A stretch of DNA of 16,931 nucleotides from Deltaproteobacteria bacterium RBG_13_61_14 (GTDB taxonomy: Bacteria > RBG-13-61-14). The notes below the pieces were generated by a model that worked only from the letters and a program-made list of their open reading frames with translations, ran no database searches and was not told the DNA's origin. Positions within the stretch are counted from its first letter, which is position 1, and each line of letters begins with the position of its first letter. Position numbers and translations under genes: made by a program. Below are positions 1,218 to 16,267 of this stretch, piece by piece. The stretch covers positions 33,223-50,153 of the forward strand of contig MGQK01000071.1 of assembly GCA_001797815.1 (NCBI GenBank), read 5' to 3'.

Positions 1218-1221
1218 AAAC

Positions 1222-1380
1222 AAATTGCCCTTGCCCTCCCTCATTTTTTCGTGAACCGGGGGTAGGGGCGCGATTTATCGCGCCCTTGCCGGGAGGTGGG
1301 CGCAATCAATTGCGCCCCTACGAAGACCGAAAATACGCGGCGCGGTCACAAACTGAGGGAGGGCAAGAAAAATTGCCTCA
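1222..1380. repeat. Composite nested inverted-repeat element, copy 1
   Basis: The core (1262-1321) begins GTAGGGGCGC and ends with its inverse GCGCCCCTAC. It contains two perfect 9-bp hairpins with 2-base loops: GGGCGCGAT/ATCGCGCCC (1266-1285) and GGGCGCAAT/ATTGCGCCC (1298-1317). The core is enclosed by a perfect 14-bp outer inverted repeat, CTTGCCCTCCCTCA (1230-1243) and TGAGGGAGGGCAAG (1354-1367). The right edge reads AAAAATTGCCTCAT. A second copy in reverse orientation lies at 16083-16267, with the two hairpin types in swapped order as expected for inversion. The element ends just before the HIT promoter. Confidence 0.8.
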
Positions 1381-1409
1381 TTGACAGAGATGGAGGCTTG
1401 GCCTAATTT
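1381..1409 (+). promoter_or_regulatory. Predicted sigma70-type promoter of the HIT gene
   Basis: Perfect -35 TTGACA (1381-1386), 17-base spacer, -10 TAATTT (1404-1409). The expected start near 1416 leaves a leader of about 29 bases that contains the Shine-Dalgarno sequence GGAGGTGA (1433-1440). The -35 box directly abuts the right edge of the composite repeat element. Confidence 0.65.
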
Positions 1410-1444: not shown

Positions 1445-1792
1445 ATGGCGGATTGCCTTTTCTGCAAGATCATTGGCAAGGAGATTCCGGCGGAGATCGT
1501 GTTCGAGGACGACCGGGCGGTGGCGTTCAAGGACATCCACCCGATCGCGCCCCTTCATGTGCTGGTGGTTCCCCGGGAGCACATCCCCACCACCAACGAG
1601 GTGGACGACTCCAACTGCGCGCTGGTCGGCCACATCTTTGAGGTGGCCGCCCAGGTGGCCCGAAAGGCCGGCTTTGCCGAGAGCGGCTACCGCTGCATCC
1701 TCAACACCAACCGCGACGCCGGCCAGGAGGTCTTCCACGTCCACATGCACGTGCTCGGGGGCAAGCGCCTCGGCCCCATGCTCTCCCGATGA
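1445..1792 (+). CDS. HIT-family (histidine triad) nucleotide-binding hydrolase, HINT-like
   Basis: A 115-residue protein, the usual size for a single HIT domain. The N-terminus DCLFCKIIGKEIPAEIVFED is the standard opening of the HINT/PKCI branch. The histidine triad is H98-V-H100-M-H102 followed by VLGGK. In this family the middle His (H100) is the catalytic nucleophile that forms a nucleotidyl intermediate. C4 and C7, with H46 and H98, match the zinc-site pattern of many bacterial members. Known HINT proteins hydrolyse purine nucleoside phosphoramidates and related adenylates in the cytoplasm; the exact substrate here cannot be read from sequence. The start is fixed by the strong Shine-Dalgarno sequence GGAGGTGA (1433-1440), four bases from the ATG. 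The gene appears monocistronic: it has its own promoter and is followed by a convergent gene with a hairpin repeat between them. Confidence 0.95.
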   Translation: MADCLFCKIIGKEIPAEIVFEDDRAVAFKDIHPIAPLHVLVVPREHIPTTNEVDDSNCALVGHIFEVAAQVARKAGFAESGYRCILNTNRDAGQEVFHVHMHVLGGKRLGPMLSR

Positions 1793-14291: not shown

Positions 14292-14317
14292 GGTGTCAGG
14301 GTGTCAAGGTGGCAGGG
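14292..14317 (+). repeat. GGTGTCAGG-type dispersed word, copy 2
   Basis: GGTGTCAGGGTGTCAAGG followed by TGGCAGGG, starting 3 bases after the stop of the secreted-protein gene. It is itself a near tandem of the word GGTGTCA. Matches 1189-1217 inverted and 8519-8535 direct. Confidence 0.5.
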
Positions 14318-14351
14318 CGGCAAATTGAATTTTTGAATGAAGGAGTGAGAA

Positions 14352-14921: not shown

Positions 14922-16046
14922 TCAGGCCTGGCTGGTGACCCAGTTGAATTCCTGCGGGTCCAGCTTCAGGTAGGCGCCGGAGTGGGAAAGCCCGGCCAGC
15001 ACCCGCTTCTTCTTGTTGAGCGAGGCCGTGCGCAAAAGCTCCACCCGGTCCTGGGGCAGGTTCTTCACCGCCAGCGTGCCCGCCGAGAGCGCCGCGTCCA
15101 AAACCACCTGGCCCTGATCCGAGCGCACGATCAGCGTATTCCACTTGTCCTTCCACTCGGTCGAGCCCACGCTCAGATCCGCGAGCTCGCTGGTGAAGTC
15201 GTAGCAGATGTCGCAGGTGTGCCGGCGCAGGTGGCGGATCGGCTCGAAGTCCAGCTCGCAAGGGCCGCTCTTGGTATAAACCACAAAACGGTTGTAGGGG
15301 ATATCGAACTTGCGGGCGGTGTGGAGGTCCAGGTGGTTCTTCAAGTGCTTGACCAGGTCGCGGTAGTCGAGCGCCCACATGCAAAACAGCCCGAGCACCA
15401 GCGCGATCCGATCTTGCAGCTTGGGCTCGATCGCCTGGCGCTTGCGGATGGCCAGCGCCTGGCAGGGCCGGGCCACTACCGCCAGTTTCTCGCACTGGCG
15501 GAGCGACTCGTCCAGGATGGCGAGGCTGGGGCAGGCGGTATATTTGGAGCCGCGGGCCAGGAGCACGTCGCCGGCGTTGCGGGCCAGGAAGGGTTCGGGG
15601 AGCAGCGGGTAGCGCTCGGAGGTGCGGGCGAGGATGGCGCCGTCAATGGCTTTATCCTCGAAAGCCTGGATCAAGAGCGCGGAGACGGTGCCGCCGTATT
15701 GGGCGGCCTTTTTCACCGAGCTGTCGCGCGACTGGGACATGAGCACGGCGCGAAGGGTGCCGAGCACGTAGTCCCGGCGCTCTTGGCCGAAGACCTGGCG
15801 GTTCAATTCGGCAAAGTCGGTCTCGGTGCGGGGGCAGATATCGTAGCAGCGGCCCTCACTAAGCCCGCACGGCTCGAGCAGCGCCACCTTTTCGTGCCGG
15901 ATCTTGAAATAGGGGCACAGACCCAGACAGCCGCCGCAGGAACAGCAGAGGTCGGCTCCCAGAATCTCCGCTTCCAGCGCCTGCGGGCTTTTCTTCAACT
16001 TCAATTGATAATCAGCCACTTCTTTCCCCTGAATCAGAATTTCCAT
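14922..16046 (-). CDS. FrhB-type protein (coenzyme F420 hydrogenase/dehydrogenase beta-subunit family, Fe-S flavoprotein)
   Basis: Up to 374 residues. The N-terminal [4Fe-4S] motif is C34-x2-C37-x2-C40-x3-C44-P, followed by C60-x6-C67-x3-C71-P. The flavin/F420-reductase-type domain follows with SKYTACPSL (168-175) and ARPCQALAI (192-200). The C-terminal C278-x2-C281 followed by DFTSELADLSVGS (283-295) is the family signature. Relatives (FrhB, FpoF, formate dehydrogenase and glutamate synthase partners) pass electrons between FAD, iron-sulfur clusters and F420 or other carriers. F420 use cannot be assumed here, and no partner oxidoreductase gene is adjacent. Start: the ATG at 16046 lacks a Shine-Dalgarno sequence and lies only 3 bases from a candidate -10 box. 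An in-frame GTG at 16019 has AGGGG (16026-16030) 6 bases upstream and fits that promoter better. I give the longer form but consider 16019 quite likely. Confidence 0.88.
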   Translation of the reverse strand: MEILIQGKEVADYQLKLKKSPQALEAEILGADLCCSCGGCLGLCPYFKIRHEKVALLEPCGLSEGRCYDICPRTETDFAELNRQVFGQERRDYVLGTLRAVLMSQSRDSSVKKAAQYGGTVSALLIQAFEDKAIDGAILARTSERYPLLPEPFLARNAGDVLLARGSKYTACPSLAILDESLRQCEKLAVVARPCQALAIRKRQAIEPKLQDRIALVLGLFCMWALDYRDLVKHLKNHLDLHTARKFDIPYNRFVVYTKSGPCELDFEPIRHLRRHTCDICYDFTSELADLSVGSTEWKDKWNTLIVRSDQGQVVLDAALSAGTLAVKNLPQDRVELLRTASLNKKKRVLAGLSHSGAYLKLDPQEFNWVTSQA

Positions 16047-16049
16047 TTC

Positions 16050-16078
16050 ATCTTATCGTAGGGTCGGGTCGGAGTCAA
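16050..16078 (-). promoter_or_regulatory. Candidate sigma70-type promoter of the FrhB-type gene
   Basis: On the minus strand: -35 TTGACT (plus positions 16073-16078), 17-base spacer, -10 TAAGAT (16050-16055). The expected start near 16043 is inside the first codon of the longest frame and therefore favours translation from the GTG at 16019. Confidence 0.5.
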
Positions 16079-16082
16079 TTAT

Positions 16083-16267
16083 TCCGGAGCCCTTGCCCAT
16101 CCCCATTTTTTGACCGCATCCCATAGTTTCGGCCTGCGTAGGGGCGCAATTCATTGCGCCCAGTTCCGGCCAGGGCGCGATCAATCGCGCCCCTACCCCG
16201 CGCTGCGCGGGGTTCCCGGAAAAATGGGGGCGGGCAAGTTCCGGAGCCTGAAAAAATGCCTCATGGT
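16083..16267. repeat. Composite nested inverted-repeat element, copy 2 (inverted relative to copy 1)
   Basis: The core (16138-16196) again begins GTAGGGGCGC and ends GCGCCCCTAC, with hairpins GGGCGCAAT/ATTGCGCCC (16142-16161) and GGGCGCGAT/ATCGCGCCC (16173-16192). Compared base by base, it is close to the reverse complement of the core at 1262-1321; differences lie mainly in the central spacer and loops. The outer inverted arms are CTTGCCCATCCCCATTTTT (from 16092) and AAAAATGGGGGCGGGCAAG (16220-16238). The right edge AAAAAATGCCTCAT resembles that of copy 1. It fills the gap between the starts of the FrhB-type promoter and the 3' end of epmA. Confidence 0.8.

Follow-up and report, generated by a model that had tools for sequence, protein, structure and literature searches.

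MITEs at a fixed distance from predicted sigma70-type promoters, probably mobilised in trans by an IS4-type transposase

The window analysed here, a stretch of 16,931 nucleotides (G000:C71:33223-50153) from a 4.74-Mb genome in 132 contigs, contains two copies of a short inverted-repeat unit, each standing next to a predicted promoter and a gene. Promoters were called by consensus match only, and the term is used here for predicted promoters. The features of the two copies are as follows (TIR, terminal inverted repeat; TSD, target duplication).

1220..1229, + strand: left TSD of copy 1, ACAAATTGCC; 9/10 match to 1368-1377; only 10 bp fits across copies
1230..1243, + strand: left TIR of copy 1, CTTGCCCTCCCTCA; perfect inverse of 1354-1367; the same end occurs in at least 40 genome copies
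1230..1367, no strand assigned: MITE copy 1, 138 bp, non-coding; from an own-genome family of at least 40 copies with common ends
1262..1321, + strand: GTAG-type REP dimer inside MITE copy 1, GTAG ends outward; occurs in this genome outside MITEs as well
1354..1367, - strand: right TIR of copy 1, inverse of 1230-1243
1368..1377, + strand: right TSD of copy 1, AAAAATTGCC
1381..1386, + strand: predicted -35 hexamer TTGACA of copy 1, exactly 3 bp past the duplication
1404..1409, + strand: predicted -10 hexamer TAATTT of copy 1, 17 bp from the -35
1445..1792, + strand: HIT-domain gene (Pfam PF01230, E 1.3e-27), predicted to be served by the copy-1 promoter
14922..16046, - strand: FrhB/FdhB-like gene (Pfam PF04432/PF04422), predicted to be served by the copy-2 promoter
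16050..16055, - strand: predicted -10 hexamer TAAGAT of copy 2, 17 bp from the -35
16073..16078, - strand: predicted -35 hexamer TTGACT of copy 2, 3 bp (TAA) past the duplication
16082..16091, - strand: promoter-side TSD of copy 2, GGCTCCGGAA; 10/10 match to 16239-16248
16092..16238, - strand: MITE copy 2, 147 bp, delimited by genome search and flank reading
16239..16248, - strand: distal TSD of copy 2, GGCTCCGGAA

A preliminary description of this DNA had outlined nested inverted repeats, and its account of the first copy holds: the 60-bp core at 1262-1321 contains two perfect hairpins with arms of 9 bp (GGGCGCGAT/ATCGCGCCC and GGGCGCAAT/ATTGCGCCC), and a perfect 14-bp outer inverted repeat lies at 1230-1243/1354-1367. 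The second copy is indeed in the opposite orientation, while the bounds first proposed for it, 16083-16267, are corrected here to 16092-16238. The edge sequence GCCTCAT, which had been counted as a shared part of the unit, lies outside the element, on differing sides of the two copies, and is absent from other copies; it was rejected as a coincidence. The listed ATG of the FrhB/FdhB-like gene precedes the expected transcription start, so the true start of this gene is probably downstream of it.

Further repeats were observed in the window. One inverted element occurs twice (1795-1838/1865-1905 and 14780-14837/14870-14919), with heptad-like runs (AGGCTTTAGAC...) facing their inverse across 47-74 bp and with arms of 25-28 bp at 86-92% identity, and looks like a second dispersed palindromic repeat family. 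An inverted repeat GTTTCACGCAAAGACGCCAAGCCGC at 890-914/1076-1100 (25 bp, 88%) spans about 210 bp, and a third short repeat, ATTGGCCACCATGACACCTTGCCACCCTGAC, forms a 31-bp inverted pair (84%) at 1185-1215 and 14295-14325.

Using the unit as a query against its own genome, we obtained at least 40 long matches, down to about 75% identity, which is far beyond chance. Nearly all of them stop precisely where the outer arms do, at positions 9 and 146 of the query; the copy number of at least 40 comes from scoring 40 of 125 candidates. The preliminary description had allowed that other copies might share only the core, with unrelated flanks; this was checked, and the outer arms are common to at least 40 copies. 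The TIR consensus CTTGCCC-N-CCC-Y-CA is present at both ends in at least 40 copies, and a search of the genome with the TIR pattern gave 70 matches, against 1 with a reversed-pattern control. The copies are about 135-149 bp long and lack a transposase gene. One of them (L017) has a partly duplicated left terminal repeat (CTTGCCCTCCCTCATGCCCTCCCTCAG). The plasmid collection, searched with the unit, gave no match.

Directly outside the CTTGCC...GGCAAG ends stands a 10-bp direct repeat, for example AGGACCGCGC, GGCGAAATAG and CTGTCCCCCG, and further copies are flanked by the duplications GATTCTCAAT, GGTCAGAAGA and CGCGGTCACT. Among 34 clear-ended copies, whose ends were picked partly by the 10-bp match, although an earlier length-free pass agreed, the mean identity between left and right flanks is 0.87 at 10 bp versus 0.25-0.39 at 6-9 and 11-14 bp. 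The two 10-bp flanks match at 8/10 positions or better in 28/34 copies (a fraction of 0.03 with shuffled partners) and perfectly in 17/34. At TIR positions 8 and 12, the left and right ends of the same copy are identical in 26/34 (expected 12.2) and 31/34 copies (expected 15.9), respectively; this co-variation means that the ends move together as pairs, in keeping with a single transposase that pairs them. With 14-bp TIRs, a TSD of constant length, a short body without a transposase, many copies and, in other genomes, autonomous partners with the same ends (L170, L223 and L194 with L227), the unit is a MITE.

The core proved to have a separate identity. Its half, GTAGGGGCGC..GCGCCC, is a GTAG-type REP half, and the core as a whole is a short palindrome with GTAG at one end, arranged as a dimer and dispersed on its own: the dimer occurs without the outer arms at two loci of the same genome (L062 and L063), and its half-sites give 94 and 95 strand matches there, many of them away from MITEs. 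The nesting thus amounts to an ordinary GTAG-type REP dimer within a MITE. For Anabaena variabilis and Halothiobacillus, REP dimers enclosed by longer palindromes had already been described (PMC3733652). Since elements in other genomes combine these arms with different interiors, it is the arms rather than the core that define the mobile unit. Some of these same-arm elements hold different REP-like palindromes (L228/L229 in G088, L100/L173 in G116; GGCAGGCTTTAGCCTGC; GGAACAGGC...), so the MITE lineage seems to have captured REPs on more than one occasion.

The GTAG foot and dimer layout of the core, which agree with PMC3733652, and its occurrence outside the unit would also suit an ordinary GTAG REP (BIME/REPIN) that a RAYT moves and that has coincidental outer arms. 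We consider this most unlikely, given that the arms are shared by at least 40 copies, are bounded by a 10-bp TSD and exist with other interiors. To our knowledge, TSDs are not expected from HUH/Y1 transposition. A search for Y1_Tnp in the same genome gave 19 matches; among the 10 loci checked for a cognate RAYT flanked by this REP, only L041 has a GTAGGGGC close by, and not the core palindrome. The Y1_Tnp genes were rejected as the family relevant here, since they mostly have TGGGGTC ends and belong to another family. About 15 copies of a Y1_Tnp gene of ~320 aa (L042-L049), several with TGGGGTC near the gene, resemble the 'TIRYT' type with GGGGWSAS ends described in PMC3733652. A TGGGGTC-type sequence appears to interrupt the MITE in L058, and probably also in L054.

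The insertions share a landing site, which the preliminary description had missed. Past the TSD, on one side of the element, there are exactly 3 bp and then a -35 box. Among the 31 copies with a good duplication, TTG stands at offset 3 beyond the TSD in 28, and a match to TTGACA at 5/6 positions or better is found at this offset in 21, compared with at most 2 copies at any other offset from 0 to 59. When copies are aligned on the element, the columns at a 17-bp spacer have the majority bases T-A-A-A-T-T, a -10 box. A -10 match of at least 4/6 accompanies 14/18 MITE-adjacent TTGAC sites versus 8/56 other noncoding TTGAC sites (p=1.2e-6; noncoding defined approximately, by masking ORFs of at least 300 nt), the figure among all TTGAC sites of the same loci being 28/374. 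An ORF of at least 80 codons lies downstream in 27/28 copies; from reading the sequences, we take these to include genes for isoleucyl- and leucyl-tRNA synthetase, SurE and ABC transporters. Both orientations of the element with respect to the predicted promoter are seen (21 vs 7). The predicted core promoter (-35 and -10) is left intact beside the element: thanks to the 10-bp duplication it retains its own upstream 13 bp, and displacement affects only what lies beyond about -48.

Strong inverted repeats upstream of genes could also mark a structured regulatory RNA or riboswitch-like element at gene starts, and the preliminary description had offered a structured RNA/DNA site as an alternative. 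The unit, however, lies upstream of the -35 and hence outside the transcript of the downstream gene, it is found in both orientations, a search of Rfam with it gave no match, and its TSDs denote insertion. A structured RNA is therefore hardly credible, and a structured site is not needed to account for the co-varying ends, which fit paired transposon ends.

Many copies of the same TIR are present in G002 (same order), in G033 (related only at the domain level) and in an Acidobacteria MAG, G116, which was reached through locus L100; traces occur in G016 and G088, and most other genomes are at the control level. Most paired-TIR pattern matches in contigs of other genomes look like chance and are mainly coding, and were discarded; only L100 (Acidobacteria) is a true relative. 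The interiors between the same arms differ across genomes and measure 126-434 bp. A spike of TTGACA stands 13 bp from the element end in G033 (12/31 ends), G002 (5/17), G016 (1/2) and G088 (1/2), counts in which only one end per insertion can face a promoter. The corresponding distance in G116 is 12 bp, matching a 9-bp duplication there. Since the rule holds with different interiors and in different hosts, it belongs to the arms or to their transposase. Random insertion followed by selection, with all copies lost except harmless or useful ones beside promoters, would agree with the normally intergenic position of MITEs (PMC10969869) and with the surviving copies standing beside genes. A single-base offset is nevertheless beyond what selection could produce, and with 21 copies at offset 3, at most 2 elsewhere and the pattern repeated in unrelated genomes, we give this explanation very little credence.

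Full-length elements with the same ends were found in other genomes. In G116, an element bounded by the same TIR (L170:171-2316) encodes a DUF6788 protein (PF20586, 3.9e-25), a DDE_Tnp_1 transposase of 437 aa (Pfam, 6.8e-14) that shows the Y-2-R-3-E-6-K signature of IS4, and a protein with a KTSC domain. The element of G444 (L223:1185-3109) encodes DUF6788 and a 399-aa relative; the Y-2-R-3-E-6-K motif reads YRQRMHIELTFRDWK and YRQRMQIEQCFRDWK in the partner transposases. A third element, in G016, is split over contigs L194 and L227, which contain the TIR and pieces of DUF6788 and the transposase, and its flanks carry the TSD CTTAATAACT/CTTAATAATT. On its left side the arrangement GTCAA-CGT-duplication corresponds to a predicted TTGACA-17-GATAAT promoter, so that a full-length element obeys the same rule as the MITEs; from the flank, this promoter presumably adjoins tRNA genes. 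The G444 element has no clear TSD, and the flanks of the L170 copy are mismatched on its two sides, the 9-bp duplication being deduced by combining contigs L170 and L172. The earlier proposal of a non-autonomous mobile element that moves as a whole is thereby borne out, by common ends, a 10-bp TSD and transposase-bearing full-length relatives elsewhere.

A search of the window's own genome bin for an IS4 partner and a DUF6788 gene found none. Contigs often break in or beside MITEs (L016, L026, L052, L053), so the partner could be missing from the bin; alternatively, it may be extinct there. The TIR, the TSD length and the target rule shared with other genomes suggest that the own-genome copies were mobilised by such an IS4 partner. 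DUF6788 was rejected as a targeting factor by itself, as two DUF6788 ISs with clear TIR and TSD (L188, L193) do not lie 3 bp from a -35. In different genomes its gene directly precedes several transposase-like genes that are unrelated (L188, L191, L193, L195), and DUF6788 is possibly a general IS accessory protein. Its predicted structure (pLDDT 92) had no significant fold match in the PDB; that of the transposase (pLDDT 50) was too poor for use.

From these results we consider it very likely that an IS4-type transposase mobilises the unit, a MITE, in trans, and that insertion takes place at a set position with respect to sigma70-type promoters. An IS4-type DDE transposase, from the lineage whose full-length elements carry DUF6788, would act in trans on the ~14-bp terminal repeats of an element whose interior had picked up an ordinary GTAG-REP dimer. 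A cut with a 10-bp stagger would then yield the order element end, 10-bp duplication, 3 bp and -35 hexamer. In a compact genome such a landing zone would be harmless, lying beside genes, essential ones included, with the core promoter intact. Transposition might be guided by promoter recognition in either of two ways: through tethering to the RNA polymerase holoenzyme, or through a transposase that reads a CTTGAC-like motif.

A transposase that reads CTTGAC, a motif akin to the CTTGCC at the tip of its own TIR, from a set distance would strike promoters only because this motif is a -35 box. The near-invariant TTG is in line with this, and so is the preceding C, which is commoner at MITE sites (22/28) than at control promoters (15/36; p=0.003). 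Motif reading would, however, also strike TTGAC sites that lack a -10, whereas a -10 accompanies MITE-adjacent sites much more frequently than it does other noncoding TTGAC sites. Several targets, moreover, have a weak -35 (TTGCGC, TTGCCC, TTGAGC) but a -10 that is usable and 17 bp away. We regard motif reading as possible, though we would not expect it to be the answer. The -10 at the right spacing and the insertions at weak -35s favour polymerase engagement, in which the transposition complex would contact polymerase bound at a promoter and cut immediately upstream of it. The two modes may also act together. We think it slightly more likely than not that the IS4-type/DUF6788 lineage and its MITEs, a cut-and-paste lineage present in several phyla, choose their targets through contact with either sigma70 RNA polymerase or the promoters it uses.

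Bacterial transposons are known to choose targets such as single sites (Tn7), hairpins, REPs and loose consensus sequences. In the literature outside subscription journals we found no bacterial IS or MITE described as targeting a set offset from promoters, which is a weak sign of novelty. If true, a distance from sigma70 promoters that is exact to the single base in several phyla would represent a new principle of targeting. In uncultured genomes the MITEs would then mark active promoters naturally. They could also inspire a tool that puts DNA upstream of a promoter and leaves the promoter itself undisturbed, and the question whether the transposase sees bound RNA polymerase or -35 DNA is made testable.

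Known prokaryotic MITEs, among them Correia/NEMIS, ERIC, BrickBuilt and MITEAba12 (reviewed in PMC10969869), are likewise short and non-coding, with TIRs, target duplication and many intergenic copies. Their described preference is simply 'intergenic', and Correia and others hold promoters inside (PMC10969869), whereas here the predicted promoter lies outside, at a fixed distance in bp downstream of the element. The partners resemble the IS4 family in the DDE_Tnp_1 domain, the Y-2-R-3-E-6-K motif and duplications of 9-10 bp; the nearest annotated plasmid match of the transposase is ISTth2 (IS4 family), at ~31% over half the protein. They differ in scoring below the cut-off of NCBIfam IS4_2 (NF033591; 121.9 bits against 152), in the extra DUF6788 (and KTSC in one case) and in the promoter-proximal target. 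The GTAG REP dimers, including those nested in longer palindromes (GTAG-15 of A. variabilis, CGTC-1 of H. neapolitanus), correspond to the 60-bp core described here and provide a precedent for its nested layout, but the consulted sections of PMC3733652 mention neither a target duplication nor a transposase partner nor a promoter rule in connection with the outer palindromes. A parallel in target choice is with yeast Ty1/Ty3 and the Dictyostelium elements, which insert upstream of RNA polymerase III genes, a safe landing zone in a compact genome (PMC5911963). Those are eukaryotic retrotransposons with no relation by descent, and the family described here, if our reading is true, would be a bacterial counterpart of Ty1/Ty3 targeting that leaves the gene unbroken.
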